Shown piece after piece: positions 2,556 through 15,724 of a stretch of 15,855 bases of DNA. Source of the stretch: Thermoplasmata archaeon (GTDB lineage: Archaea; Thermoplasmatota; Thermoplasmata; Thermoplasmatales; Thermoplasmataceae). Position 1 is the first letter of the stretch. Each line of letters opens with the position of its first letter. The notes beneath the pieces are model-generated. The model saw nothing but the letters and a program-made list of their open reading frames with translations. It was not told the origin of the DNA and ran no database searches. The position numbers and the translations under genes were made by a program. The stretch lies in the NCBI GenBank assembly GCA_021847855.1, contig JAJZOT010000008.1, positions 1-15,855 of the forward strand, written 5' to 3'.

Positions 2556-3134
2556 TCACGATGAAATGACGGTAGGTTTAGCAACTATCTTTACAAAACC
2601 TTCGGAGAATTCAATCTTTTCAGTGGAATATCCATAGGACTTCAGGAAGCCACGGAGCCCCTCCGCAGTGCATTTGGCAGCTTCGATGCTGTATCCGGCA
2701 CCCGAAATAACCATGGAAGTCACATCGCCTTGCATCTCAACCTCAAAGATATCCATTGGAAGTAGAGGGCTATATTCTGTTATTAAGTTTACCACATCCT
2801 TGAGGTTGTGAGAGTATTTCTTCAGAATGTCTCCTATAACCTGGCCTCTTTCGTACCATCGCTTAATCACTTCCTCCTCTGAGTTGTTGAATGCTATCTT
2901 TATCAGGTTGTCGAGAAGGATTCCCGGTATAGGCACAGAATTAATCTCCTTCATTATCCCCAAAAGTTTTAAGGAACTGAGAATTTCGTCGGCCCTTACC
3001 CAAACCTTCTTTGTTTCAAGGTAAATGACTGCAGCTTCACTTAGAAGCGAACTCACGGTTTTTCCGGATTTCTCAGATTCCTCATTGATACTCTTGAGCA
3101 ACTCATTCTTCATACTGACATTTATTCTTGCCAT
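2556..3134 (-). CDS. Ribbon-helix-helix transcriptional regulator with an unassigned C-terminal domain
   Basis: A 192-residue protein. Residues 1-42 (MARINVSMKNELLKSINEES and the following helix SSLLSEAAVIYLETK) form a CopG-like ribbon-helix-helix DNA-binding domain. The remaining ~145 residues form a mixed alpha/beta domain (IFEVEMQGDVTSMVISGAG, EKIEFSEGFVKIVAKPT) that I do not recognise and that may sense a ligand or redox state. It has a single Cys. The start is supported by AAGGTG about 10 nt upstream and a TATA box at 3180-3187 (minus). It is divergent from the cupredoxin-Rieske-cytochrome b genes, so it is the best local candidate for their regulator. The TTCCC-GTAT-GGGAA palindrome at 3361-3374 is a possible operator. 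The regulatory link is inference. Confidence 0.75.
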   Translation of the reverse strand: MARINVSMKNELLKSINEESEKSGKTVSSLLSEAAVIYLETKKVWVRADEILSSLKLLGIMKEINSVPIPGILLDNLIKIAFNNSEEEVIKRWYERGQVIGDILKKYSHNLKDVVNLITEYSPLLPMDIFEVEMQGDVTSMVISGAGYSIEAAKCTAEGLRGFLKSYGYSTEKIEFSEGFVKIVAKPTVISS

Positions 3135-3179
3135 TCTTTGTACACCTTGAGCCGGTACATCAGGATACTCTGTAGCGCC

Positions 3180-3187
3180 TTTATATA
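3180..3187 (-). promoter_or_regulatory. TATA box of the ribbon-helix-helix gene
   Basis: TATATAAA-type sequence on the minus strand about 50 nt before the start at 3134. This would give a leader of roughly 23 nt containing AAGGTG, so the mRNA is probably led rather than leaderless. A 10-bp palindrome ACATATATGT (3226-3235) lies further upstream, in the space shared with the divergent operon. Confidence 0.5.
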
Positions 3188-3243
3188 GTTTTGTCAGAAG
3201 TCCTATCCATTACCTTTTTCCATATACATATATGTCAGCTGAA

Positions 3244-3305
3244 TAAAATTGTTCCAATGTGTGTTACTATACTCATCCTTACTCACTTAACTTATTATAT
3301 TTCTC
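3244..3305 (+). promoter_or_regulatory. Shared upstream module, copy 1 (cupredoxin operon)
   Basis: This 62-bp stretch aligns without gaps to 8387-8448. TAAAATTGTTC (3244-3254) and TAACTTATTATATTTCTC (3288-3305) are identical in both, 44 nt apart start to start, and GTGTGTT lies between them in both. By my count 46 of 62 bases match. The 3' block contains a TATA-like TTATTATAT. Here it would place a transcript start near 3319-3323, about 95 nt before the cupredoxin start. Confidence 0.6.
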
Positions 3306-3333
3306 AACTGTCTGCCTTTCAAGGTATTTACCT

Positions 3334-3426
3334 ATGTATGTCGTAAAGGTGAGCATAAATTTCCCGTATGGGAATCTTTTTATGCCTTTGCACATGATAA
3401 AAACGGGAGAGAACTATTATGAATGA
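3334..3426 (+). CDS. Possible 30-residue upstream ORF in the cupredoxin leader
   Basis: ATG at 3334 opens a 30-codon frame (beginning MYVVKVSINFPYGNLF and ending KTGENYYE) that stops with TGA at 3424-3426. It overlaps the first eight bases of the cupredoxin gene in another frame. It would lie on the transcript from the upstream TATA at 3292-3300. Overlap with the next start is the arrangement seen in coupled leader peptides, but the frame is short, its protein is unrecognised and the region also holds a palindrome and a second TATA box. It may be chance. Confidence 0.2.
   Translation: MYVVKVSINFPYGNLFMPLHMIKTGENYYE
3361..3384 (+). promoter_or_regulatory. Palindrome and proximal TATA box of the cupredoxin operon
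   Basis: TTCCC-GTAT-GGGAA (3361-3374) is a perfect inverted repeat directly abutting TTTTTATG (3377-3384), a plausible TATA box. The transcript would start near 3407 with a 12-nt leader holding GGGAG (3405-3409) before the ATG at 3419. A repressor bound at the palindrome would block TBP/TFB access. The divergent ribbon-helix-helix protein is the obvious candidate. Confidence 0.5.
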
Positions 3427-4126
3427 AAAGTTTTTTTATGCAATTATATCGGCGATTATTGTAGTTGGCGGAATTGGAATAGGAGCCATTTACTATCACT
3501 CCGTAAGCAGTGCCGGTTCAACGGCTTTGCCTCAACAGACATCTCTTACACTGGTGGTTACATCAGAGAATTATTACAATAACACAGAACCACACCAACC
3601 TGTATTTTATATCTTGGAACCTAATGGCAGTCTTGCCTCAGCTTCAAACATAAATCTGCCATCTCACAAACTTATTTCCATAACAATTGTGGATTATGAT
3701 GGACAGGGTACTGAGGCTAACATATATGCGGACTCCACATCAAATATCACCAACTATGCCAATGTAACCGGAACTGTTGGTGGGGTTGAGTATTATTACA
3801 ACAATACAAACATCAATTCGAGCCTTTCAAACAACGTTTCCAACAACATTACAGTTAGTGGGGGAATGTTGATCTCAAAGGTTCCATGGATCGGTAACTC
3901 CACTGGAGGCTATGACATAGCACACACATTCACCATACTGTCCAATGGGAAGGTTATTCTAAACCTGCCAAGCCCTGGAGATTCGATAGTTCACGCAAAT
4001 ATCTACATTAACCAGACCGGTACGTATACATGGCAATGTTATGTGCCGTGTGGCAGTGATACGAACGGATGGGGTGGCGCAATGGCTACGGCAGGCTGGA
4101 TGTCTGGACAGGTAACGGTATCTTAA
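3419..4126 (+). CDS. Membrane-anchored cupredoxin-like protein (sulfocyanin / oxidase subunit II type)
   Basis: A 235-residue protein with one N-terminal membrane anchor (residues 5-26), an outward-facing domain rich in Asn/Tyr and about ten N-x-S/T sequons, and a C-terminal cupredoxin fold. Candidate copper ligands are H169 (IAHTF), C207 and C211 (WQCYVPCG) and a Met in the GGAMATAGWMSG loop (M222 or M228). The C-x3-C spacing equals that of CuA, but the His four residues later is a Thr (T215). The His of blue copper loops (C-x4-H-x4-M, as in rusticyanin) is also absent. It is probably an extracytoplasmic electron carrier paired with the Rieske/cytochrome b genes that follow 10-16 nt downstream. 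It could be mono- or binuclear copper, or metal-free; the sequence does not decide. Confidence 0.75.
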   Translation: MNEKFFYAIISAIIVVGGIGIGAIYYHSVSSAGSTALPQQTSLTLVVTSENYYNNTEPHQPVFYILEPNGSLASASNINLPSHKLISITIVDYDGQGTEANIYADSTSNITNYANVTGTVGGVEYYYNNTNINSSLSNNVSNNITVSGGMLISKVPWIGNSTGGYDIAHTFTILSNGKVILNLPSPGDSIVHANIYINQTGTYTWQCYVPCGSDTNGWGGAMATAGWMSGQVTVS

Positions 4127-4142
4127 ATTCAGGTGAATGTTA

Positions 4143-4868
4143 ATGAGCTCGCCGGAAAAAGAGGATTTGTCCGCAAATCCTGAGAGAAGGACATTCCTCA
4201 AGTTCATGGGTACTATTGCCATTGGGGCCGCCGTTGTGGGAGGACTCCGAGGGATGGTTCAGACTATTATCCCGCAGTCGTCGCCACTTGCCTCAGGCTT
4301 TCCGACCATGACGCTGGTGGATTCTTCCGGGAATCCCATTAAAACAACTGATTTACAGGTCAATTCTGCTTCAGTCGTTACCTTTGAATATCCACTCCAG
4401 GGAGAACCGAACTTCCTGCTCAGACTAGGCGACAGCAGCAACAAGGATGTAGAGGTTAAATCCATGACGGTAAAATCTCCGGCATCAGGAAAAACATTTC
4501 AATCCCCGCCTGGCGTTGGACCGTATAAATCTGTGGTTGCATCGAGTGCAATCTGTCAGCACCTCGGTTGTGAGCCACCGATCATGCATTTCTACCCGCC
4601 AGGTTCTGGTTCATTTCCGGGAAAGATACACTGTAACTGCCACGGAAGCACTTACGATCCGTATCAGGGTTTTGGCATCGTCACCGGACCTACACTGGAG
4701 CCGTTGCCTAACGCTGTCTTGAGTTATGATCCGTCCAGCGACACTTACAAAGTCGTAAACATGGTAGGGCCAACGATATACGGTCACACCAACGACCTTA
4801 GCGGCGGCAACCCACTTCCTTCAACCACTCAGACGAAAATACAGAATACTGGGACTCCTACGTCTTAA
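4143..4868 (+). CDS. Rieske [2Fe-2S] protein with Tat-type signal
   Basis: About 241 residues. The N-terminus carries a Tat-like motif (ERRTFLKFMG) followed by one hydrophobic helix, so it is exported folded and probably stays anchored. The Rieske domain shows both cluster-binding boxes: ICQHLGC (C138, H140, structural C143) and CNCHGSTYDPYQG (C164, structural C166, H167). All ligands and both disulfide cysteines are intact. It should carry electrons from quinol oxidation at cytochrome b to the cupredoxin. A Gly/Ser/Thr/Pro-rich tail of ~35 residues follows the domain. The frame also has an ATG at 4137, but AGGTGA (4131-4136) touches that codon and is correctly spaced (6 nt) for ATG 4143, so I choose 4143. 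It sits between the cupredoxin and cytochrome b genes in a tight operon. Confidence 0.93.
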   Translation: MSSPEKEDLSANPERRTFLKFMGTIAIGAAVVGGLRGMVQTIIPQSSPLASGFPTMTLVDSSGNPIKTTDLQVNSASVVTFEYPLQGEPNFLLRLGDSSNKDVEVKSMTVKSPASGKTFQSPPGVGPYKSVVASSAICQHLGCEPPIMHFYPPGSGSFPGKIHCNCHGSTYDPYQGFGIVTGPTLEPLPNAVLSYDPSSDTYKVVNMVGPTIYGHTNDLSGGNPLPSTTQTKIQNTGTPTS

Positions 4869-4880
4869 TAGGTGAAAAAT

Positions 4881-6509
4881 ATGTTGAAAAGCGGATCTAA
4901 AAAAGGTTCCATGATTGCGAAGATAATGAATGAACCACAGTTTCTGCCAAGAAAAGTTCCAGATTACATGAGAAAGAAAGGGGGTTCATCTTACTGGATA
5001 GGATCAATGGTTCTGACGGCATTCATGTACGAGGTGTTCACAGGGCTGATCATACTCTTCTATTATGACCCTGCGAGTGCCTATGCCAGTACAGAGAATT
5101 TTGTCAATAATGTTCCATTCGGATCATTGATTCTCACCACGCACCTCTACGGCGCATATATTATGATTGTTTTAACGTACATTCACCTTCTCCGGAATTT
5201 CTTCGTTGGTGCATACAAGAATCCAAGGAAGAACCAGTGGATCACAGGTATCCTTCTTCTCCTTCTCACTATCGCAGTAGGATTTTTCGGTTACTCCATG
5301 AGCGGAGATGTTCTGGCCATTGATGCAACCGATGTTGGCAGAGGTATCGCGGCAGGCGCTCCTGTGATTGGTGTCTATCTTAGATCATTATTCTTCGGAA
5401 GCGGCACAGATCTGTCACTATTTCACTGGATGCTTGGATGGCATATTGTGCTGGCAGCATCTATAGGAATACTGTTTTCTTTTCACTTTTTCATGGCAGA
5501 ATACAACACCGTTATGCCCGCAAGGAAAGATTCAGATTACAAGGCGCCGGCTATTGATATGGGGAGCCCGGAATACAAACCATGGTTCCCTAACAACCTT
5601 CTGTATATGGTGGAGCTCTCTCTTTTGATTATTTCGGCAATTATCCTGATCCCGTCCCTGCTTGCCATACTTCCCGGTGTCCCTGCGCTATTTTCGCCGT
5701 TTCCGCAGGTGGCAGCCACGAATCCCCTTGCGGCAAATGTTCCGCCATATCCTCCGTGGTTCCTGCTTTTTGTTTACAAGGAGCTTGATTTCGAGATGGT
5801 TCAGGGAATCGGGCCATTCTGGGGAACAGTGGTATTTGTTGGTCCTCCTCTGATGTATCTCATGGCCCTTCCGTATCTTGACACAAGCAATTCGTTAAAG
5901 TTGAGAGAAAGACCGATAACTGTTTCAATGGGAATAATCGGGATAGTTTACCTGATAGGTTTGACAATATGGGGTGGACTCACACCTGGCGTGCCTATAC
6001 CAACTTGGCAGGTTCTTGCATTCTTCCTCGTGCCGGGAGTCCTGATAGTAGGTCTTGTCCTTCTTATTTCTCATCTCTTGGAAGAGGGAGCAATTAAGTT
6101 TACCAATCCGGAAAATCTCTACATTGCGCTTACGATTCTTGGTTTGTCATCGTTTGGAGTTGGCATTCTAGCCATTGCCCTGATCACAAACTATCTCCTA
6201 ATCTACGGAGTGCCGCTGATCCTTCTACTGATGGTGGTAAGCATATGTCTGGTGTATATCTATGCGTTCATAAAGACCGGCGGTGCGATGTTCGGGAAAA
6301 GGGAGAGGGAAGACTATCTCAAGGGAAGCACATATACAGTGACAGCCTCTGGATTCACACTTTCAGCAATCGTTATATTCATTGAGATCTCCATTATTCC
6401 GCCTACTTCTGTTATGTCAAGTTCACTTTATGGAATAGGCCTAGGAATTCTGTTCCTGATTGCAGCAGCCTTGCTGAAAATATACAGGAGTGCTACATAC
6501 GGGGAGTGA
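4881..6509 (+). CDS. Cytochrome b (quinol-oxidising, Rieske-associated)
   Basis: About 542 residues, longer than the usual ~400 because of roughly four extra C-terminal membrane helices. Heme ligand pairs are H88/H102 in one helix (TTHLYGAY...YIHLLRNF) and H188/H202 in another (GWHIVLA...FSFHFF). Both have the 14-residue spacing of cytochrome b, so both b hemes are expected. The quinol-oxidation site motif, normally PEWY, reads PPWF (residues 291-294), removing the conserved glutamate. Together with the Rieske protein it would form a bc1-like core; no cytochrome c1 gene is present and the cupredoxin may serve as acceptor. A GTG at 4872 also opens the frame, but AGGTGA at 4870-4875 is spaced for the ATG at 4881. 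A T-rich stretch (6531-6543) follows the stop. Confidence 0.92.
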   Translation: MLKSGSKKGSMIAKIMNEPQFLPRKVPDYMRKKGGSSYWIGSMVLTAFMYEVFTGLIILFYYDPASAYASTENFVNNVPFGSLILTTHLYGAYIMIVLTYIHLLRNFFVGAYKNPRKNQWITGILLLLLTIAVGFFGYSMSGDVLAIDATDVGRGIAAGAPVIGVYLRSLFFGSGTDLSLFHWMLGWHIVLAASIGILFSFHFFMAEYNTVMPARKDSDYKAPAIDMGSPEYKPWFPNNLLYMVELSLLIISAIILIPSLLAILPGVPALFSPFPQVAATNPLAANVPPYPPWFLLFVYKELDFEMVQGIGPFWGTVVFVGPPLMYLMALPYLDTSNSLKLRERPITVSMGIIGIVYLIGLTIWGGLTPGVPIPTWQVLAFFLVPGVLIVGLVLLISHLLEEGAIKFTNPENLYIALTILGLSSFGVGILAIALITNYLLIYGVPLILLLMVVSICLVYIYAFIKTGGAMFGKREREDYLKGSTYTVTASGFTLSAIVIFIEISIIPPTSVMSSSLYGIGLGILFLIAAALLKIYRSATYGE

Positions 6510-6530
6510 AGCCAGAAAGTACACTCCACA

Positions 6531-6543
6531 CTTTTCCTTTTTT
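6531..6543 (+). terminator. Oligo-T terminator after cytochrome b
   Basis: CTTTTCCTTTTTT, 22 nt after the stop codon. Archaeal termination commonly uses T-rich stretches without a hairpin. A separate TATA-like sequence (TTTATTATC, about 6608-6617) precedes the next gene, so the operon may partly end here. Confidence 0.4.
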
Positions 6544-6607
6544 GAACCTGTCGCTAGATGACAAAATAATTTGGTCCCGTCCTGAAATACAGAGAAGGCC
6601 CGGAATT

Positions 6608-6644
6608 GTTTATTATCTTATTTCTTTTTCCAATATTATGGAGG
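6608..6644 (+). promoter_or_regulatory. Promoter and RBS of the polytopic protein gene
   Basis: TTTATTATC (6608-6617) is a TATA candidate, which would start the transcript near 6640. GGAGG (6640-6644) lies 11 nt before the ATG at 6656. An ATG at 6652 in another frame stops after four codons, so 6656 is the start. Confidence 0.35.
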
Positions 6645-6655
6645 CTGAGTAATGA

Positions 6656-8224
6656 ATGTTGAATAGTGAGAAATCCCCTGATATTGGTAAAGAAAAGAAA
6701 CAATCCGCCTCCTTACACAGCATAGTATTGCCACAGAAGTTAGAATTATCTCTTAGTGTTATCACTTCACTTTTTACAGTAATTTACTTCCTTCTCGGTT
6801 CATCAGCTGGATTTATAATATTCAACAGTGATCTTGGAATCGAACGCTACGGAATAATTCTCGCCATAGCAGTGATTCCCATTGTGGGTGCCCTCGCACC
6901 TGAAAAACTTTCTCCTCTGAAGCTGTATCTGAAGTCGTTTGCAGCATTGAATTTCATTTTGCTTATGATACTCAGTTCAGGTAATCTGCCTATGCTCTTA
7001 CTGAGTTTTGCCCCTGCAGCCGCAGCAACGATATCCCTTGTATCCGGTGAAAGATACGTCAGAAGGAAAAACAGCAGGCTCGCCGTCTTTATCGGAGTTT
7101 TTCTTTTCATGTTATACATAGGCGAGTTTGTGACGATTGCCTCTGGCTCACTCTCCAATAATATAGTATTTATCCCATCCCTGGACTTCTTCCTGACTTC
7201 TTCCTTCAGCAGAGGGTCATTCTTCCTTTATGCAGGGGTCGTAGTCTTTTCTCCTCATTTAGCGGTTATTTTCAGCCCTGAAGAATATGCGCTGTTTTTT
7301 GCAATATCTGTGCTTGTGTCAGAAAACTATTACAGGATAGTTTCAGTTATGGTAAGAGAAAAGGGGCTGAAAGGAAGACAACTTAGCAGTCTGGTTTACG
7401 GACTCACCGGTGCATTCAGTTGCCAGTGTGAGGGGTTGATCGCGTTATTACCTGTTATGACTGCCCTTCTTCTGTCATTTTTCCTGTTTCCGCTCATCCT
7501 CGAAAGCCTTGCTTTCCTGTCAGCAACATTTTACCTTACAACAAAATTCTACATGGAGGGAAAACCCATTGTATTCTCATGGATTCGTGGTAATGGATAC
7601 AGCGGGAAAATAATCTTTCCTCTTGCAGTTTTATGTCTGTTTGCTCCACAATTTCTCGTTATAATCGGAGTTTATTATTCTCTTCAGCACAACCCCCTTT
7701 TCTTTCTTGGATCTACTATGCTTATGATAGTGCCCGGTTACGTCTTTGGGATTATCATGGCAAAGATTCTTCCAGTGGCCTCAATCCCGTACCGTGCAGG
7801 AATAATTATGGCAAGTCTCGGTATAGTGATCTCCTCCATGTGGTATTTTCCATACCTCACAGGATATGCATATGCAAATCCTGCAATATTCGCACTCATG
7901 AACATTACAGTATTCACTGGAGGTGTTTTTTTCGGTTTATCATACAAAATTCTTGGAGAAACCGTAGGAAAGATACTAAATGAGTTCATCACTGTTATAT
8001 TCAGTTTTATCCCGGTTATAGTGTATTATTACGCTGTGATAACCCAGAGACCATTGTGGAGTGAATTTTCCATAATTGGGCAGATTGAGTTTTCCCTGCT
8101 CACCTGGGCGATTATGCTACCTTTGATGTGGCTGACAACGCACGTGAGCCTAAACACGCTGGTAGCAAGTAGATCAGCTGCGGCGATCAATCTGCATACT
8201 GAAATCACGATAACCCGGCCTTAG
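6656..8224 (+). CDS. Polytopic membrane protein of the redox island, function unknown
   Basis: A 522-residue protein with about 13 hydrophobic segments from residue 31 to 498 and a charged, cytoplasmic-looking N-terminus (KSPDIGKEKKQS). I recognise no transporter or enzyme family. Its most distinctive feature is C256-x-C258 (TGAFSCQCEGLIALLP) at the start of a hydrophobic segment; the only other Cys is C327. Such a pair could bind metal, form a redox disulfide or take part in copper transfer, but this is speculation. It lies between cytochrome b and the ferredoxin-fusion gene on the same strand. Sulfolobales soxLN-cbsAB clusters also pair Rieske/cytochrome b with an uncharacterised hydrophobic subunit (established for that group), so a subunit role is a reasonable inference. 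No homology to CbsB is claimed. Confidence 0.75.
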   Translation: MLNSEKSPDIGKEKKQSASLHSIVLPQKLELSLSVITSLFTVIYFLLGSSAGFIIFNSDLGIERYGIILAIAVIPIVGALAPEKLSPLKLYLKSFAALNFILLMILSSGNLPMLLLSFAPAAAATISLVSGERYVRRKNSRLAVFIGVFLFMLYIGEFVTIASGSLSNNIVFIPSLDFFLTSSFSRGSFFLYAGVVVFSPHLAVIFSPEEYALFFAISVLVSENYYRIVSVMVREKGLKGRQLSSLVYGLTGAFSCQCEGLIALLPVMTALLLSFFLFPLILESLAFLSATFYLTTKFYMEGKPIVFSWIRGNGYSGKIIFPLAVLCLFAPQFLVIIGVYYSLQHNPLFFLGSTMLMIVPGYVFGIIMAKILPVASIPYRAGIIMASLGIVISSMWYFPYLTGYAYANPAIFALMNITVFTGGVFFGLSYKILGETVGKILNEFITVIFSFIPVIVYYYAVITQRPLWSEFSIIGQIEFSLLTWAIMLPLMWLTTHVSLNTLVASRSAAAINLHTEITITRP

Positions 8225-8386
8225 GATAACAGTCGATCAACAATTATCTTCGGCGATACCAGACTGCTACTGTCGGATCTGCTTCACCCAAAGTGAAATC
8301 CCCTTCTTGATAAGAAATTAAATCTGGCAGGAGTGTCATGAATTGTTGAAATATAGCGTTTCTCACGTGCAGGCTTGAACATTGTG
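8225..8386. other. Spacer before the ferredoxin-fusion promoter
   Basis: No ORF or RNA structure recognised. It contains a CACGTG hexamer at about 8364-8369. The regulatory part begins at 8387. Confidence 0.3.
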
Positions 8387-8448
8387 TAAAATTGTTCTTT
8401 AGTGTGTTTGAATGCACACTTTTACACGCCTAACTTATTATATTTCTC
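8387..8448 (+). promoter_or_regulatory. Shared upstream module, copy 2, with TATA box and inverted repeat
   Basis: This aligns gaplessly with 3244-3305: TAAAATTGTTC at 8387-8397 and TAACTTATTATATTTCTC at 8431-8448. The TATA element TTATTATAT (8435-8443) is 27 nt from the ATG at 8466, giving a leaderless transcript. AGTGTG-(8 nt)-CACACT (8401-8406/8415-8420) is a perfect inverted repeat upstream of the TATA, where archaeal activators bind. Copy 1 keeps only the GTGTGTT arm. Confidence 0.65.
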
Positions 8449-8465
8449 GCCAGTCCACCGACCAG

Positions 8466-10415
8466 ATGGAATCTATTATTCTGATAATGGAACTGACATT
8501 TTTAGCTTCTTTGATGATTCTCTTCTCCATATTCCTGATATTCAGGATCAAAAATGACAGATCAGATACCTGGCTCAATTTTTCCCTTTATCTGTCAGGT
8601 GGCATGGTGACAATGTTCATTTTTCTTCCATATTATTTTACCTCCCCGAATCTGTCGCTACTTGCAATAATACTCCTTGTCAACACCGCATACATGATAG
8701 TTGGGTTCTTTCTTATAATCTACTTCAGTAGATTCAGGGAATCGGTTAAAATTCACAGGAAACTGGTCCTGTCCATATTTGCATTGTTAATGGGAATCAG
8801 TGAGGCGGCAATGGGACAGACGTTCAACTCAATTATCAGCGGCACCCCAGGAAATATTCTTCAGGGAACCACCAGTTACTGGTATCAGGCAGCCATGCTG
8901 GCTGAGATGCTATTTGCACTGTTCTACTGCATGAAAAAAGAAAAATCACCGTTGAAAAACTATCTGATCGGAATGCTGACGGTGATGGCAATTTCGCCGC
9001 TTATGGATCTGAACAGTGGATTTTACGTTACCTTTTCAACATGGTATTCTGCCGTTACCATGATTGGAGCCACTGTTCTCATTTATGAAACACTATACAG
9101 ATCAAGGGCATCGCTAACACAGAACCTTCCTTCAGCCGTTTGGGTGATGAGTATCTTCGCTTTAATGATGGTTGGAGAATTTCTATTCTTCCTTTATGGG
9201 GACTGGACTATTTTCGAACTGTCCATGATTCTCGGGATGGCACTTTTCATATACAAGGCAATGGACACTTCCCAGTCAGCCAAAATCATCTACACTTCTC
9301 GAGCAGGCTGGACTTTTACATTCCTTCTGGTTACCTTCGTGATGGAATGGCTCATGGGAGCGGTCCTGGATTTTAATACGGGCATATTTTCCGGAGGGCT
9401 TTCCGGATTCATATCCTCCCTTCCATGGTATGCTCCCCTTACCTCTTATTATGGTCTGGGAGCAGTTGCTGACTTTATAGCTGTAGTGGGAATAGTTACC
9501 GGATCTCCATGGTTTCTCATTATGATGGGTACAGAGATGGGTTCCCTTGTGATCTTCAAAATGATGAGCATGAAAAGCAGAGAGAATATTGCTAGATCCG
9601 CCATAATGCTTTTTTCATTTGCAGTATACGCCATTTATCTCCCCATATTTTCACCGTTTTCCTCTTATTTACGGTATATACCCTACATGTGGAGCATGGG
9701 TATTGGGACGCTTGGGCCGGTCAGCCCCTCTTACCTCCTTGGAGGAATTGTCGGAACCTATGCGGTATCGGCCGCTCTTTCATTCATGTTTGGTGGGAGA
9801 CAGATTTGCTCAGTGACTTGTACTGCGCCGGTTATGTATCAGGGAACTTTTTATGACACCCTTAAAACTTATAACCGGACATCTCGATTGGGGAAAAAAA
9901 CTCTGGGATCGTCAGTCAAGCCATTGTTCATGCTCATTATAATGGGGGTCTGGGTCCTTCTTCTCATATCAGCAATAGTATCTTATCTGAACAGTACGGG
10001 AATCATTGCCTTTACCATCCTTGATGTTGACGTTACAATGTTCTTATTCAGCTTCTTCTTCAATTTCCTGTGGTACGTTGTCTTTATCTCCATCCCTTTC
10101 ATGGGAACATATGCCTGCATTACCCAGGGATGGTGCGCCTGGGGTTCCTTCAACGAATTCTTCGGCCACCTTGGATTCTTCAGGCTGAAAGTCAAGAATT
10201 CGTCTCTGTGCTCAACCTGCTCTACAAAGGATTGTGCCGTCGCATGCCCCGTTGGAAATACGGAACTTCCCGGTAATTTCATAAGAAAAGGTGAGTTCAA
10301 ATCTTTCAAGTGCGTTGGAGTTGGAGACTGCATAGAGGCGTGCCCTCATAACAACATCTTTACTTATGATGTCAGGGCTTGGATGAAGGAGAAGATCAGA
10401 GGGAGCCAATATTGA
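8466..10415 (+). CDS. Membrane protein fused to a NapH-like polyferredoxin region
   Basis: About 649 residues. Residues 1-270 form a domain of about eight membrane segments homologous to the convergent gene that ends at 10396. Residues 275-400 add more helices. The C-terminal third has NapH/NosR-like features: GGRQICSVTC (C448, C452), a membrane segment, YACITQGWCAWGSF (C551, C557), then a cytoplasmic-type ferredoxin domain. The first cluster motif is complete (C582-x2-C585-x4-C590-x3-C594-P). The second is C616-x5-C622-x3-C626-P with V619 where a Cys is expected, so one cluster may be [3Fe-4S] or need another ligand. It probably moves electrons between a cytoplasmic donor and the quinone pool or Rieske complex; that is inference. 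The frame extends to 8412, but that ATG lies within the promoter. The TATA at 8435-8443 is 27 nt from ATG 8466. Confidence 0.8.
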   Translation: MESIILIMELTFLASLMILFSIFLIFRIKNDRSDTWLNFSLYLSGGMVTMFIFLPYYFTSPNLSLLAIILLVNTAYMIVGFFLIIYFSRFRESVKIHRKLVLSIFALLMGISEAAMGQTFNSIISGTPGNILQGTTSYWYQAAMLAEMLFALFYCMKKEKSPLKNYLIGMLTVMAISPLMDLNSGFYVTFSTWYSAVTMIGATVLIYETLYRSRASLTQNLPSAVWVMSIFALMMVGEFLFFLYGDWTIFELSMILGMALFIYKAMDTSQSAKIIYTSRAGWTFTFLLVTFVMEWLMGAVLDFNTGIFSGGLSGFISSLPWYAPLTSYYGLGAVADFIAVVGIVTGSPWFLIMMGTEMGSLVIFKMMSMKSRENIARSAIMLFSFAVYAIYLPIFSPFSSYLRYIPYMWSMGIGTLGPVSPSYLLGGIVGTYAVSAALSFMFGGRQICSVTCTAPVMYQGTFYDTLKTYNRTSRLGKKTLGSSVKPLFMLIIMGVWVLLLISAIVSYLNSTGIIAFTILDVDVTMFLFSFFFNFLWYVVFISIPFMGTYACITQGWCAWGSFNEFFGHLGFFRLKVKNSSLCSTCSTKDCAVACPVGNTELPGNFIRKGEFKSFKCVGVGDCIEACPHNNIFTYDVRAWMKEKIRGSQY

Positions 10416-11280
10416 TCTTTTTTCGATTCCAGCTTTGATTCCCGTTGAATATAGTATAGAAATAAAAAACCATACCGCAGATCATTGCTATAGCAAGGGG
10501 AGACCATACTGATGAGTAGGGGCCAGTAAGAAGAAATCCAAGTGCTATGCCGGAGGCCATTAGTGCGTAGACAAGAAACAGACCTGCAAGGAACCTGATC
10601 TCGTTAATAACGAGAGTCGGGAGATTCTTCCATATCTCCTGAAATATGAGAACCATAAAAAATGTCATTGCGGCGATGGTAAGTATGGTTCCGGGTACTT
10701 CAAAAACAAGGTCGGGAAGCAGAGTTGGAGAAGAAAGCGACATAACTATTATGGAGGAGTAGGAGACTAACTGCAGTCCTTTACTTTCGAAAAGCAGAAC
10801 TGAGAATATCATTTCTGCCGCCATTGGAGCAATGAACAGGTAATTATTGATCCCGTTGACAACATATCCAGGGATGCTAACTATTCCTACGGAATATAAG
10901 GGGGCGTATCCGATTATATATAAGAGCAACGCCATCGATATCTCATTCCATACGAGAAGAACTGTTATCCATGCAGAAAAGTGCCGAACCTTAAAATCAC
11001 CTTTTGAGCGTGCTGCCTCGAATGCTAGGTAGACTATGGCAACGGACATTGAAAGCATGGATATACTGAGGGCAATTATGGCGCTGAAGAACGTTTGAGG
11101 ATTTACAAAATAATATGACAGAGAATCCAGCATTCCGCCCATCATGGATAGTATAAGGATAATTACCGCCCATTCTTTCAAAAGAAGCTTTTTTCCCACT
11201 CTGTGAACATAATAAATAATCAACCCCAGAACTGCGGTCATAGTAAACTCAACAATAATTATCCCTGTTATGTTGTTCAT
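10396..11280 (-). CDS. Membrane protein, stand-alone paralogue of the ferredoxin-fusion N-terminal domain
   Basis: About 294 residues and about eight hydrophobic segments, with no Cys-rich motif. By eye it is related to residues 1-270 of the convergent protein. Both have a short N-terminal helix beginning (I)VEFT/MELTF, a GG(M) followed by a YYF segment in the second helix, and an 'A-M-x-A-E-M-x-F' helix start (IAPMAAEMIFSVLLF versus QAAMLAEMLFALFYC), followed by an Ile-rich segment containing SP. It ends in the same position, after helix eight (VFYFYTIFN versus LFIYKAMD). The frame opens at TTG 11304, but ATG 11280 has GGTG just upstream and a TATA-like TTTAATTT near 11313-11320. Its 3' end overlaps the convergent gene by 20 bp. 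It may be a subunit or an assembly or sensory partner; function unknown. Confidence 0.75.
   Translation of the reverse strand: MNNITGIIIVEFTMTAVLGLIIYYVHRVGKKLLLKEWAVIILILSMMGGMLDSLSYYFVNPQTFFSAIIALSISMLSMSVAIVYLAFEAARSKGDFKVRHFSAWITVLLVWNEISMALLLYIIGYAPLYSVGIVSIPGYVVNGINNYLFIAPMAAEMIFSVLLFESKGLQLVSYSSIIVMSLSSPTLLPDLVFEVPGTILTIAAMTFFMVLIFQEIWKNLPTLVINEIRFLAGLFLVYALMASGIALGFLLTGPYSSVWSPLAIAMICGMVFYFYTIFNGNQSWNRKKINIGSL
10417..10424 (+). terminator. Oligo-T stretch after the ferredoxin-fusion gene
   Basis: CTTTTTTC begins two bases after the stop codon, a plausible archaeal terminator. It lies inside the 3' part of the convergent gene, so transcripts from both strands overlap here. Confidence 0.35.
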
Positions 11281-11870
11281 ATCAGCACCGGTCTGGAATC
11301 TCAAGAATATTCAAATTAAAAGCACAAGTTATGAGAAAGGTGATGCTCAGGAATGGGAGCTTCTTTTCTCGCCTTTTATGAGACATTAGCTTCAAGCCTC
11401 TATGCCTTCCGATTCTATTTTTCTTTCTCCTGAAATTTTCATAAGTTTCTCATTACCCTGAACCACATTTCCGTAGAATGACTCAAGCTGGTTATGATCG
11501 ATTTGATACTTTCCACGCTATATATAGAGAAAACCAGGTGCCGTGAAGAAATACTGCAGGGAAGAAATAGAGAATTTCTCTGGTTAGTGACTCTGTGGGA
11601 ATTTACGCATTATTTGGCATCTTCTTTTGATTTTTCTAAGCTTTTCGCGAAGTTAAAACATAAGTAAAGATGCATTATTCATTTCAGTGACACCTTTCGA
11701 CTTAATTTCACAACACCGTTGCCGTGGATTTGCACAACACCAATGGATACGCATCTTTTCAAACTCGTTATTTAATTTCATGAGCTTTACAACTTTCAAA
11801 AGCAACCTGCCAAGCAGATCAACTGAGATAAAACAATAGTAACAGATAAGTGTGGATGTCAAGAATGTTG
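11281..11870. other. Gene-poor stretch with a transposase remnant
   Basis: About 590 bp. It holds the promoter of the 10396..11280 gene and the transposase C-terminal remnant at 11392-11517 (minus). A 69-codon minus-strand frame at 11653-11862 is Cys-rich (HWCCANPRQRCC) but has no recognisable family or start signal, and I do not call it. No inverted repeats marking insertion-sequence ends were found by eye. Confidence 0.4.
11392..11517 (-). pseudogene. C-terminal remnant of a DDE-type transposase
   Basis: A 41-codon minus-strand frame reads KYQIDHNQLESFYGNVV, then QGNEKLMKISGERKIES and ends ...GIEA before a TGA stop. HNxLESFYGN followed by a basic/Met stretch resembles the region around the catalytic Glu of DDE transposases ('HN.iErlhgt.rdr.k.mrG'). 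An in-frame TAG bounds it upstream and no start is available, so only the tail survives. The assignment rests on this short pattern, so the exact insertion-sequence family is open. Confidence 0.5.
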
Positions 11871-12456: not shown

Positions 12457-13056
12457 TCATCCAATTGATTCTTTACATATCTTTCTCGCAAGGTCCAGAT
12501 CCTCGCGTGTATCGATGTCAAGAAAGCAGGTTTCATTTTCAATGCTGATAAATTTGACACGGTTTTTGTTCTTCATAACTATTTCCCTTCCTCCTTTATC
12601 TCCCGTTATTTCCATTAAGTCCCGGAAATATTCCTTCGAAAATATCACCGGATTCCGGGGAATACCGTGTAGTGATGAACTCACTATACTGCTTCCTTCA
12701 GCTCTCCACTCCACGATCAACTTGCGGTAATTTTCCGATCCGAAGAATGGCATATCTCCATTGGTGATAAGAACTGCATCTACATCGGGTGAGATGTTAG
12801 CAATAGCAGCCTTGATCGAGGAAGACATTCCTTCCTTTGCGTGTTTGTTTTGAATCAACCGTATTCTAGAATCAAGGAGTAATGAATCCATCCGGCTTCC
12901 GACCCCAGTTACAATATATATCAAATCGAGGTCGGTATCAGCCAGATCGTCGACTACCCTCCTTATTACCGTTTTGCCACAGAGATCCTGATTGAGTTTA
13001 TCTGATCCCAGCCTGGTGGAGTATCCCGATGCCAGAATAACTCCTGCTATTTTCAT
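12457..13056 (-). CDS. mocA: Molybdenum cofactor cytidylyltransferase (MocA/MobA-like)
   Basis: About 199 residues of the MobA-like nucleotidyltransferase fold. The N-terminal nucleotide-binding loop is LASGYSTRLGSDK (residues 8-20; family pattern LAaGxSxRmGxxK). EGMSSSIKAA (75-84), the metal-binding TNGDMPFF (98-105), GIPRNPVIF (131-139) and TGDKGGRE (151-158) are all present and typical of MocA proteins, which join CMP to molybdopterin for xanthine-dehydrogenase-family enzymes. Its place beside xdhC and coxMSL-type genes favours MocA over MobA (GMP) or a sugar nucleotidyltransferase. The frame has an earlier ATG at 13074, but ATG 13056 begins the conserved strand MKIAGVILASG and lies about 23 nt from a TATA-like TTTTATAG (13075-13082, minus), so I choose it as a leaderless start. 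It is divergent from the hydroxylase operon. Confidence 0.88.
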   Translation of the reverse strand: MKIAGVILASGYSTRLGSDKLNQDLCGKTVIRRVVDDLADTDLDLIYIVTGVGSRMDSLLLDSRIRLIQNKHAKEGMSSSIKAAIANISPDVDAVLITNGDMPFFGSENYRKLIVEWRAEGSSIVSSSLHGIPRNPVIFSKEYFRDLMEITGDKGGREIVMKNKNRVKFISIENETCFLDIDTREDLDLARKICKESIG

Positions 13057-13408
13057 GCTGATTGGAGTAAGCATCTATAAAACATATACCTTGCCTGCCA
13101 CAAATCGGTATTGCTTACGGGAAACATTTTGAATGTGGCCAATGTCTTGAACTGTCTGCCTACTGTACTGAAATCGTATTCCAAAACAGCTTTGAGCAGA
13201 TCATCTGGAAGAAAGCGTCAAACAATACATCTACCTTAACCGTAAAAATCAGGTTGTATTTTTCACCCTGCTGGAACATCCGTTTCAATTTTTTTCTAGT
13301 GTTTGTCCCCCGCTATTCTTATTCGATAGATCATACTCCTATCTGTGAAAATAGGTAAAATGCTTGAAAACACGAAAAGCATTTAATAGGATGTTTAATA
13401 ACATAATT
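13057..13408. other. Divergent intergenic region between mocA and xdhC
   Basis: About 350 bp. The mocA TATA box (minus, 13075-13082) and the xdhC TATA-like TTTAATAG (13382-13389) lie at its ends. In between, a plus-strand frame (about 13128-13358) stays open (HFECGQCLELSAYCTEIVF...) with three closely spaced Cys residues but has no start signal or family match, so I do not call a gene. A T-run (about 13290-13298) is present. Confidence 0.35.
13382..13389 (+). promoter_or_regulatory. TATA box of xdhC
   Basis: TTTAATAG, centred about 24 nt before the ATG at 13409. It overlaps the longer frame that begins with TTG at 13364, which argues that the first 15 codons of that frame are promoter, not protein. 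Confidence 0.45.
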
Positions 13409-14248
13409 ATGGAGAACTACGATTTCGCAAGCAAGATTCATGATATGAGCACTGCAGGTCGCTCTTTCGTCGTTGCCACTGTCGTGAACACTGAGGGTTC
13501 TTCACTTGCAAAACCTGGATTCAAGGTAGTTATATACAACGGGGAAGTGATTTATGGTACACTTGGCGGTGCGTGCCCCGAATCAGTGATACTTGATATG
13601 GCTGAAAAAGTCCTGAAATCAGGACAGCCAAGAACTGTCAAAATCCACCTTGAGGATGCTGGCAAGGGAATTCCTGCCATGATGACAGCAAAAACAGATA
13701 ATGAGATCTTCGTTGAGACTTTCTGTGGGGGAACCATAGACGTGTTCCTTGAACCATTCAAGCCGTTTGAGCGCATGGTGATCGTGGGACAGGGAGGAAG
13801 AGATGAGGTTGAAGATTATCTTGTATGGCTTGGTAAAAAGCTGGATTTCAAGGTCATTGTTATTGATCATGCCCCGGGACTCACGGAAAAGCCTGATGAG
13901 CTTATATCTGATCTCGACTTTAATCTGGAGAATTTCAAATTTACCAAGGATGATTTTGTAATAATACTCACTAAGGGAGAGCGCGACATAGAGACTCTGA
14001 AAGCCCTGTCAAAGCACAATGTTGCATACATAGGTCTCATGGCCAGCAGGAAGAGAATTGATCACGACTTCGGGATATTGAAGAGTCAGGGAGTTCCCGC
14101 AGATTTCCTGGACAGGATTATGACCCCTATAGGGATTAAAATAAAGGCAGTCACTCCATTTGAGATCGCCATAAGCATTGTTGCGGAAATCACGGGTGTG
14201 AGACGCGAACGCCTGACTTTCATCAGAGATGAAAAACTCATGGCATAA
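13409..14248 (+). CDS. xdhC: XdhC/CoxI-family molybdenum hydroxylase maturation protein
   Basis: About 279 residues with both halves of the family. The N-terminal XdhC/CoxI domain has ATVVNTEGSSLAKPG (23-37), GTLGGACPES (50-59; Cys56) and FCGGTID (105-111). The C-terminal Rossmann domain has VIVGQGG (124-130) and the closing IGLMASRKR (208-216). XdhC proteins bind sulfurated molybdenum cofactor and deliver it to xanthine-dehydrogenase-family enzymes, here presumably the adjacent coxMSL-type enzyme. In many members the Rossmann loop reads GxGHxG, so VGQGGRD is a mild variant without the His. Start 13409 is chosen from the TATA spacing; ATG 13391 and TTG 13364 are alternatives. The FAD-subunit gene follows after 74 nt with its own TATA box. 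Confidence 0.9.
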   Translation: MENYDFASKIHDMSTAGRSFVVATVVNTEGSSLAKPGFKVVIYNGEVIYGTLGGACPESVILDMAEKVLKSGQPRTVKIHLEDAGKGIPAMMTAKTDNEIFVETFCGGTIDVFLEPFKPFERMVIVGQGGRDEVEDYLVWLGKKLDFKVIVIDHAPGLTEKPDELISDLDFNLENFKFTKDDFVIILTKGERDIETLKALSKHNVAYIGLMASRKRIDHDFGILKSQGVPADFLDRIMTPIGIKIKAVTPFEIAISIVAEITGVRRERLTFIRDEKLMA

Positions 14249-14290
14249 GTTTTGCAACCTTTAAGATTAATCCTAAAAAATAAAAAATCC

Positions 14291-14300
14291 CTTTAAATAT
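14291..14300 (+). promoter_or_regulatory. TATA box of the FAD subunit gene
   Basis: CTTTAAATAT, centred 27 nt before the ATG at 14323, so the hydroxylase subunit transcript is predicted to be leaderless and to start separately from xdhC. Confidence 0.6.
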
Positions 14301-14322
14301 CAGGAAATATTGTTCATTTGCT

Positions 14323-15192
14323 ATGATACCGCCACCTTTTGATTATTTTGCACCGACTGATATTCAGGAGGCTTTGGATCTTTTGAATAAGTACGGAGAA
14401 GAAGCAAAGATTCTTGCCGGAGGCCAGAGCCTGGTGCCGCTGTTGAAAGCCAGAATAACGACTATACCTTACCTGATCAGCCTCTCCGAAATCCGTGGTC
14501 TCTCTTATATAGACGAGAGAAAAGGGGCACTGCATATAGGGGCTATGACTCTGGACTGTGATATTGAACTTTCTGGCATAATAAAGAAAAGATTCCCTAT
14601 ACTGGCAGATGCAGCCGGACAGATGGCTGATCCACTGGTCAGGAACATGGGAACCATCGGAGGCAATATTTCACATGCTGATCCAAGCAACGATCTCCCC
14701 GCTGTTATGAACGCAATCGGGGCGTCAATGATCGCGAAAGGCAGGAACGGGAGCAGGGAAATCAATGCCAGGGACTTTTTTGTTGACACTTTTACGACTG
14801 CGCTTGATCAAGGAGAGATTTTGACCGAGATACGGCTTCCTTTCTGGGGCAATAATTCAGGAGGGTCATACGTGAAATTCAGGAAAGGTACCTGGAATTT
14901 CTCGGTAGCGGCCGTCGCTGTCCAGTTGGAACTTGATGGTAAAAAGGTGATTAGGTCAGGAATTGCAACAACTTCTGTCGGACCAAGAACGCTGAAGATG
15001 GAAAAAGCTGAGAAATTCATTATAGGCAAAGAACTTACAGAGGACACTATCAAGCAGGCTGCGGAAATAGTTGCAAGAGATGCCCAGCCGGTTTCTGATT
15101 CCTATGGATCAGAGGAATACAAGAGAGAGATATTGAGGCGGATTACCGCAGATGCCATAAAGAATGCCCATAAAAGGGCCAGAGGAGAGTGA
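14323..15192 (+). CDS. coxM: FAD-binding medium subunit of a molybdenum hydroxylase (CoxM type)
   Basis: A 289-residue protein of normal length for CoxM/CutM. The two FAD-binding motifs are clear: AGGQS (32-36) and TIGGNISHADPSNDLPA (111-127), the latter within VRNMGTIGGN. The C-terminal substrate-dehydrogenase domain follows (GGSYVKFRKGTWNFSVAA, IRSGIATTSVGPRTLKMEKA). It takes electrons from the iron-sulfur subunit and passes them to the quinone pool or another acceptor. The order FAD subunit, 2Fe-2S subunit, large subunit is that of coxMSL operons and of glyceraldehyde oxidoreductases in some thermoacidophilic archaea, so the symbol is by family and not by proven CO oxidation. It is the first gene of the operon, probably leaderless; the next gene starts four bases after its stop. 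Confidence 0.9.
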   Translation: MIPPPFDYFAPTDIQEALDLLNKYGEEAKILAGGQSLVPLLKARITTIPYLISLSEIRGLSYIDERKGALHIGAMTLDCDIELSGIIKKRFPILADAAGQMADPLVRNMGTIGGNISHADPSNDLPAVMNAIGASMIAKGRNGSREINARDFFVDTFTTALDQGEILTEIRLPFWGNNSGGSYVKFRKGTWNFSVAAVAVQLELDGKKVIRSGIATTSVGPRTLKMEKAEKFIIGKELTEDTIKQAAEIVARDAQPVSDSYGSEEYKREILRRITADAIKNAHKRARGE

Positions 15193-15196
15193 TTTA

Positions 15197-15724
15197 ATGG
15201 AAAAGAAACATGTATCGATAATTGTGAATGGCGAGAGGAAAGAGGCGGAAATTGAACCCAGAATGCTCCTCGCACACTTTCTGAGAGAAGTGGTTGGTCT
15301 GACAGGCACCCACATAGGATGTGACACGACAAACTGTGGTGCATGCACAGTTATTCTCAACGGCAGGGCCGTTAAGTCCTGCACAGTTCTGGCAGTACAG
15401 GCGAACAACACGAAAGTCCTGACCATAGAGGGACTGACCAGAGGGCAGAATAAACTTCACCCCGTACAGAAAGCATTTGTGGATAAACAGGGGTTCCAGT
15501 GTGGTTACTGCACATCCGGAATGATTCTCACTTCATATTGGCTTCTCAAGAACAGGAATAACGTTTCTGAGGAGGAGATCAGGGCGGCAATATCAGGGAA
15601 TCTCTGCCGTTGTACTGGATATGACAGTATTGTGGAATCAATAAAGGAAGCCCAGGAAATGATGAAAGAAGAGGGAGATACTCTCGAAAACGAGCAGGAG
15701 ATCACTGTTCGTTCAAAGAGGTGA
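15197..15724 (+). CDS. coxS: 2x[2Fe-2S] small subunit of a molybdenum hydroxylase (CoxS type)
   Basis: A 175-residue protein. The N-terminal plant-type ferredoxin domain has C42, C47, C50 and C62 (HIGCDTTNCGACTVILNG...SC). The C-terminal four-helix domain has C102, C105, C137 and C139 (GFQCGYCTSGM, GNLCRCTGY), with Q101 near the molybdopterin in family structures. All eight ligands are intact, so both [2Fe-2S] clusters should form and relay electrons from the Mo site to FAD. The tail after residue 155 is charged (MMKEEGDTLENEQEITVRSKR). The frame is open from 15164, but that stretch overlaps the end of coxM; ATG 15197 with GGAG 9-13 nt upstream is preferred. The large-subunit gene starts immediately after the stop. 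Confidence 0.95.
   Translation: MEKKHVSIIVNGERKEAEIEPRMLLAHFLREVVGLTGTHIGCDTTNCGACTVILNGRAVKSCTVLAVQANNTKVLTIEGLTRGQNKLHPVQKAFVDKQGFQCGYCTSGMILTSYWLLKNRNNVSEEEIRAAISGNLCRCTGYDSIVESIKEAQEMMKEEGDTLENEQEITVRSKR

Follow-up and report, generated by a model that had tools for sequence, protein, structure and literature searches.

Close to the locus analysed here stands the sulfocyanin cluster of Acidiplasma, Ferroplasma acidiphilum and Picrophilus, for which the cluster description in a 2025 paper gives COX15, coxAC, coxB, CyoE, cyt b6, Fd, Rieske, SoxE, a blue copper protein and hypothetical proteins, and in whose text 'Fd' and COX15 are neighbours (PMC12524180). According to the genome paper of F. 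acidiphilum, the iron-oxidation chain is encoded on a genomic island; the paper also lists FAD_0146, a ferredoxin of COG0348 (PMC5473848). In bacteria, CcoG acts as a cupric reductase in the assembly of cbb3 oxidase; it is encoded beside oxidase genes and is a membrane protein with two tetranuclear Fe-S clusters. The 2020 review that describes it names the activity of CopZ from Archaeoglobus fulgidus as the only archaeal Cu(II) reduction known (PMC7558416). Here we describe a 15,855-nucleotide (nt) stretch of a Thermoplasmata archaeon from an acid environment (contig JAJZOT010000008.1, hereafter the window), which carries an island of genes for a cupredoxin-like protein (cup), a Rieske protein, a cytochrome b (cytb), a polytopic membrane protein (poly), a membrane ferredoxin fusion protein (fus), a free paralogue of its first part (par) and a ribbon-helix-helix (RHH)-like protein (rhh) (Table 1). 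Comparison across genomes revealed that poly and fus are separate modules, common to Rieske/cytb and heme-copper oxidase settings, and that the Met/Glu-rich NapH-type fusion family represented by fus is the most interesting part of the island.

Linkage, defined as location within 8 kb, was scored in 61 order-level genomes, the denominators being the genomes that have both genes. poly was linked to COX1 in 27/40 and fus in 21/42 genomes, the corresponding figures for cytb being 11/37 and 9/39. poly and fus were linked to each other in 17 of 40 genomes and poly to cup in 13 of 33; cytb and COX1 were neighbours in 5/39 genomes, and cup and COX1 in 0/35. As 0.6–1.5 pairs per comparison are expected by chance (assuming 1.6-Mb genomes and ignoring contig ends), most of these linkages exceed expectation and the arrangement is thus not due to chance. 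Short or weak fragments were removed before counting (cup, 15/80 rows; cytb, 6/80; fus, 2/52; COX1, 5/51; poly, 0/53), whereby one cup genome (G004) was lost and 37 of the 38 were used. The poly counts are lower bounds, since the gene was scored as missing in G039, G046, G049 and G055, although G046 does carry a divergent poly. Overall, relatives of poly occurred in 42, of cup in 38 and of fus in 44 of the 61 genomes. COX1 was likewise found in 44/61; 42 genomes had both fus and COX1, two had fus only, two COX1 only and 15 neither. COX1 was also present in all 12 chosen crenarchaeal and thaumarchaeal genomes with fus.

Gene maps of 40 chosen regions, with gene names taken from Pfam scans of examples and from BLAST labels, showed two main settings of poly. 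One is a heme-copper oxidase cluster (small protein, COX2, COX1, plastocyanin-like protein, UbiA, poly and Rce1-like protein, often with a divergent fus), the other is the order cup-Rieske-cytb-poly; cup-poly-fus (L135, L136) and cup-poly (L120, L138–L140) were also seen. The nearest genome compared (G001), whose island genes at locus L021 have 94–100% amino-acid identity to those of the window, contains both settings (L021 and the oxidase cluster L121), with a separate fus and poly in each. In genus g6, COX1 was absent from 4/4 sampled genomes and cup, poly and fus lay side by side (L135, L136, L143, L144), so that fus and poly can accompany a cupredoxin without an oxidase. Around 80 named fus loci, the best 80 of 136 relatives, a par-like gene was present within 8 kb in 39, COX1 in eight, an RHH homologue in six (L021, L052, L058, L066, L068, L077), poly in three, and cup, Rieske and cytb in two each; as these counts come from BLAST with few window queries and many contigs were short, they are lower bounds. 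Window-type Rieske/cytb genes lay near fus only in L021 and in L032, which repeats the gene set of the window. L146 and L147 each combine oxidase genes with fus, a divergent poly and Rieske/cytb.

Pfam analysis of fus detected Fer4_7 and Fer4_10 over cut-off. Its C-terminus is NapH-like (PRK09477, E 4e-8), at 32.6 of 234 bits, and therefore below the NapH equivalog cut-off. hhalign matched this part to E. coli NapH (94% over 174 columns) and, in the ferredoxin portion, to YccM (92% over 77 columns). Judged by sequence, fus is a member of the NapH/CcoG/YccM membrane ferredoxins, with a homologous core predicted to hold two 4Fe-4S clusters. The start codon is probably ATG 8466 rather than 8412, because none of the 22 relatives in alignment A2 begins upstream and 15 begin in the 8466 column, and because 8412 falls inside a repeated upstream element described below; in the larger alignment A4, 11 of 64 relatives begin upstream of that column. 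An earlier note on this DNA had read an eight-segment domain fused to NapH-like ferredoxin motifs. The fusion was borne out, but the membrane part preceding the core has about 12–13 helices in the AlphaFold2 (AF2) model, which was confident overall (pLDDT 83, pTM 0.89), and is internally duplicated: residues 50–238 and 239–440 are repeats (hhalign probability 95%, P 1.8e-8) which share ExxMG and WFxxMxxEM-type stretches in the same order. Alignment A4 (65 rows; 64 relatives hand-chosen from 111 fus matches) contained, within residues 1–440, 43 columns conserved to at least 90%, of which 17 were Met, six Glu and none His. With 31 Met among 400 columns, this excess of Met gave a hypergeometric P of ∼1e-10, a value that ignores shared ancestry. 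Fold searches recognized no solved structural relative of fus.

The free convergent paralogue proposed earlier was likewise found, par being related to approximately the first 290 residues of fus. Its Met and Glu residues were conserved as well: in 25 par homologues, picked by BLAST and length, M22, M54, M55, M58, M83, E121, M124, M161, E164 and M165 were kept without exception.

Variants of fus were also observed. In L143 (6662–8583), on a single contig of 1,564,906 bases, it is split into two open reading frames (ORFs) of 375 and 276 amino acids that overlap by 37 nt, the split lying close to where the Met/Glu domain gives way to the NapH-like core. An apparent fission in L137 was discarded, as the break is a masked run of N. 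Locus L074 (9479–11390) of Metallosphaera yellowstonensis carries a shorter variant of 505 amino acids, followed by a VKOR-family gene.

poly matched no Pfam (at E up to 1) or NCBIfam family. In agreement with the earlier reading of some 13 segments and a CxC motif, its AF2 model (pLDDT 80) has about 13 helices, and a CQCE motif was invariant in the 29 rows of alignment A3; ENY, W396, P399 and M415 were also invariant or nearly so, and no His was conserved. CQCE sits in a low-confidence stretch of the model, at the interruption between two predicted helices, and, by analogy only, resembles the CPC motif of copper ATPases. A protein search yielded eight relatives of poly, three of them near-identical. 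With respect to a copper importer of the major facilitator superfamily (MFS; CcoA-like), Pfam gave no match at E up to 1 and fold searches gave short, low-Z MFS rows only. A heme A synthase was rejected, since no CtaA/COX15 family matched and no conserved His was present.

The genes cup, Rieske and cytb form a tight operon that recurs in relatives, with gaps of 10 nt between the first two and 3 nt between the last two. Gaps of 146 nt before poly and 241 nt before the corrected start of fus imply that the whole row is not one obvious transcription unit. The Rieske protein matched PF00355 over cut-off (25.0 bits), and its translation contains CxHxGC and CxCHGS, the Rieske [2Fe-2S] motif; the best NCBIfam match was SoxL2 (E 1.4e-66), but with 225 of the 582 bits required it stays below the equivalog cut-off. 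The matches of cytb to PF13631, PF00033 and PF00032, all over cut-off, indicate N- and C-terminal cytochrome b domains, the best NCBIfam match being SoxC (NF041076, E 3.7e-123), below cut-off at 412 of 740 bits. A Pfam scan of 14 distinct ORFs of the window, including a small one at 268–807, revealed no family of COX1, hydrogenase or cytochrome c1, nor an analogue of the latter, as the earlier note had also observed, and the cupredoxin may stand in place of c1. The linkage of cup to cytb in 23/33 genomes supports a recurrent pairing of a c1-free Rieske/cytochrome b unit with a copper protein on the extracytoplasmic side. The cupredoxin assignment itself needs correction: seven aligned cup sequences share candidate ligands (one His, CxxPCG and a Met), but no copper-protein family was matched over cut-off in Pfam or NCBIfam, and the set is neither canonical type-1 nor CuA. 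Sulfocyanin and rusticyanin have two His, a Cys and a Met as type-1 ligands, and the CuA motif of subunit II is CxExCxxxHxxM. A sulfocyanin or rusticyanin was rejected for lack of a family match and the single conserved His, and a CuA subunit (COX2) because CxxPCG is found there but the His is absent (CoxB, 15.1 of 147.7 bits).

The supply of copper to archaeal heme-copper oxidases and cupredoxins is poorly known. We tentatively propose, at somewhat less than an even chance, that fus and poly handle copper for these proteins. The observed basis consists of the gene content, the linkage to both respiratory modules, the duplication, the Met/Glu conservation, the NapH homology and the upstream element. 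The proposal was made because both settings of poly and fus contain a copper protein (the COX2 of the oxidase clusters has the full CuA motif in 15 of 16 tails, the sixteenth ending short of the motif) and because CcoG would be a bacterial precedent. The island is read as an aerobic-respiration locus in which two layers are envisaged. In the first, the Rieske/cytochrome b unit, a quinol oxidase without c1, would deliver electrons to the anchored cupredoxin. In the second, poly and fus, with par, as membrane accessory proteins common to heme-copper oxidase clusters, would provide copper in a suitable redox state. In fus, the NapH-like [4Fe-4S] domain would take cytoplasmic electrons and reduce Cu(II) to Cu(I), its duplicated Met/Glu-rich membrane part and par would conduct or hand over Cu(I), and poly, through CQCE, would move or insert copper into the extracytoplasmic sites of cupredoxin, CuA and CuB. 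We infer copper as the substrate, the direction of its transfer, the electron donor and regulation by the RHH protein. Neither Cox11 nor PCuAC was detected in the genome sample (0/61 each). The more specific view, that fus, par and poly are a previously unrecognized archaeal copper-delivery machine which metallates respiratory copper sites in thermoacidophiles without recognizable Cox11 or PCuAC, and in which fus would be a Met/Glu-lined, internally duplicated membrane conduit joined to an Fe-S cupric reductase, par a partner conduit devoid of clusters and poly a CQCE-bearing transporter, is doubtful as a whole.

Several observations weigh against a role in copper handling. Sco matches were obtained in 26/61 genomes, nine of them over cut-off, narrowly and mostly over half the model. 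Among eight control genomes with COX1, Cox11 was found in one, PCuAC in two and Sco in six; as most oxidase-bearing controls thus do without Cox11 and PCuAC, the absence of both lends the proposal weak support. The NCBIfam family nearest to fus is NapH, a quinol dehydrogenase subunit, and CcoG was not among the best 25 of 34 families. A C-terminal immunoglobulin (Ig)-like domain of the CcoG type gave no Pfam match in fus at E up to 1, and fold searches returned no informative relative. fus was linked to window-type cup in only 3/36 genomes, and 22 of 50 fus places were without any tested partner within 8 kb. Some fus genes lie by arsenic-type genes: in L051, L060 and L065 the neighbours upstream of fus fall into clusters represented by ArsB (L064) and a low-molecular-weight phosphatase (L061), which are arsenic-resistance-like. 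Finally, in a phylum-wide sample of 194 genomes COX1 was over cut-off in 82 and convincing fus, counted at E ∼1e-90 or lower, was present in 25, 20 of them with COX1 (19 further matches covered the ferredoxin part only), so that oxidases do not generally need fus. fus without COX1 was found in this sample in the four g6 genomes, each 99% complete, and in G154 of family f7.

The strongest rival takes fus for an electron-input module, a ferredoxin:quinone (or quinol:ferredoxin) oxidoreductase serving the quinone pool of Rieske/cytb or of the oxidase, with poly as a partner subunit. A NapH-like core with two ferredoxin clusters is what such a module would have, linkage to both respiratory modules would suit it, and 2-oxoacid:ferredoxin oxidoreductases are annotated in Metallosphaera (PMC7325606) and Acidiplasma (PMC12524180). 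However, it leaves unexplained both the Met/Glu conservation of fus and the existence of par, where the same residues are kept without any cluster; moreover, fus has no conserved His for heme, and most named fus loci lack Rieske/cytb nearby. Although on balance rather unlikely, electron input remains a serious rival.

It is improbable that poly, and perhaps fus, instead serve heme, that is, the transport or insertion of heme O or A into the oxidase and a SoxC-type cytochrome. In the oxidase clusters, poly does come after UbiA, a gene resembling that of heme O synthase, and the cytb of the island is SoxC-like, SoxC in Sulfolobus carrying heme As. On the other hand, neither poly nor fus has a His in its conserved columns, and conserved Met, Glu and CxC would better suit a soft metal.

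A single stable assembly of all six proteins, in which poly and fus would belong to the Rieske/b complex as structural or redox subunits, is improbable: adjacency, the upstream element common to operon and fus, and the joint occurrence of Rieske/cytb, poly and fus in L032, L146 and L147 speak for it, but poly and fus are more often neighbours of COX1 than of cytb, Rieske/cytb was near only 2/80 fus loci, and gaps separate the genes. The dedicated complex proposed in the earlier note was therefore not upheld for poly and fus; the separation from Rieske/cytb in other genomes which that note had named as counter-evidence is largely seen for fus and partly for poly. In F. acidiphilum, a Rieske-cytochrome b complex of 150 kDa is separate from the sulfocyanin-oxidase complex of 850 kDa, as described in a review (PMC8280799). 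Functional cooperation is nevertheless likely, given the gene set of L032, the groupings in L146 and L147 and the common upstream element. Thus, the island is real, recurrent and modular, and a single-complex reading is not favoured. Should the copper role hold, proteins now called 'polyferredoxin' or '4Fe-4S binding protein', or without any name, in Thermoplasmata, Sulfolobales and Nitrososphaerales could be assigned a function open to testing, and the 'Fd' in the iron-oxidation clusters already described would have a role other than that of an electron carrier; should electron input hold, the result would have a bearing on the way in which reduced ferredoxin supplies respiration in these organisms. 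In both cases, one-complex models resting on this island alone should be avoided.

The upstream element is a direct repeat whose copies are 74% identical without gaps and include 18 identical nt with a TATA-like stretch. Its core had only two matches in the window, 0.04 being expected, and both cores were kept in L021 and not in L121. Such a repeat suggests co-regulation of the cup-Rieske-cytb operon and fus. The second copy ends 10 nt before ATG 8466, a distance that suggests a leaderless fus transcript. The RHH protein is a candidate regulator, its family assignment being weak as an unrelated family scores equally well. Another direct repeat of 25 nt (257–281 and 1500–1524), 80% identical, is possibly due to chance.

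All genes of the island proved real and in the order claimed earlier, Rieske, cytb, poly, fus (with its end at 10415), par and rhh being confirmed (weakly for rhh). par overlaps the end of fus by 20 nt, and rhh is divergent. Beside the island, at 12457–15724, lies a molybdenum hydroxylase locus, with a MobA-like nucleotidyltransferase (PF12804) on the minus strand and, on the plus strand, XdhC/CoxI (PF13478, PF02625), a CO dehydrogenase-type flavoprotein (PF00941, PF03450) and a [2Fe-2S] subunit (PF01799). An ORF of 128 amino acids at 1473–1859 gave a sub-threshold PIN-domain match (E 0.0054, 17.8 of 23.6 bits).

Table 1. Genes and repeated elements of the island, with positions in the window.
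Feature	Position	Strand	Basis
RHH-like regulator (rhh)	2556..3134	-	PF07878 E 0.015, below cut-off
Upstream element, copy 1	3244..3312	+	69-nt direct repeat
Cupredoxin-like protein with N-terminal hydrophobic anchor (cup)	3419..4126	+	Seven-sequence alignment; no copper family over cut-off
Rieske protein	4137..4868	+	PF00355; SoxL2-like
Cytochrome b (cytb), SoxC-like	4872..6509	+	PF13631/PF00033/PF00032; NF041076
Polytopic membrane protein (poly), invariant CQCE	6656..8224	+	No known family; alignment A3
Upstream element, copy 2, just before fus	8387..8455	+	69-nt direct repeat
Fusion protein (fus): duplicated Met/Glu-rich membrane domain and NapH-like 2x[4Fe-4S] domain	8466..10415	+	Corrected start
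Free paralogue of the first part of fus (par)	10396..11304	-	27% identity

The co-location of island genes is partly known in print, as far as the published cluster descriptions go. The literature searched, to which subscription papers did not belong, assigned no function to fus, poly or par, and contained neither the anatomy of the fus family, nor its association with par and RHH genes, nor the copper proposal. The published 'Fd' may well correspond to fus and one of the published hypothetical proteins to poly. Like the sulfocyanin cluster, where 'Fd' and COX15 adjoin, loci L132 and L133 have fus next to a gene of 261 amino acids that has no Pfam match and looks CtaA/COX15-like by eye; in contrast, the window is devoid of coxAC, coxB, CyoE and COX15, and its cupredoxin is outside the known families. 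fus resembles CcoG (RdxA/FixG), YccM and NapH in being a membrane Fe-S protein. It differs in its duplicated Met/Glu membrane domain, which has no counterpart in E. coli NapH (287 amino acids) or YccM (357 amino acids), in the Cx5C form of the second Cys motif of its membrane core, and in the absence of a FixG-type C-terminal domain, the Ig-like domain of CcoG being absent from YccM-type members too. The soxNL-cbsAB cytochrome ba complex of the Sulfolobales, a bc1 analogue in the source's account of it, likewise combines a Rieske protein and a cytochrome b with an additional uncharacterized hydrophobic protein, CbsB (PMC5461723), whereas no CbsA-type gene was recognized in the window. By description, the island is also comparable to the fox iron-oxidation cluster of the Sulfolobales, in which, as outlined in the same source, an Fe-S protein is encoded beside heme-copper oxidase genes (PMC5461723), and fus was located by COX1 in Metallosphaera.

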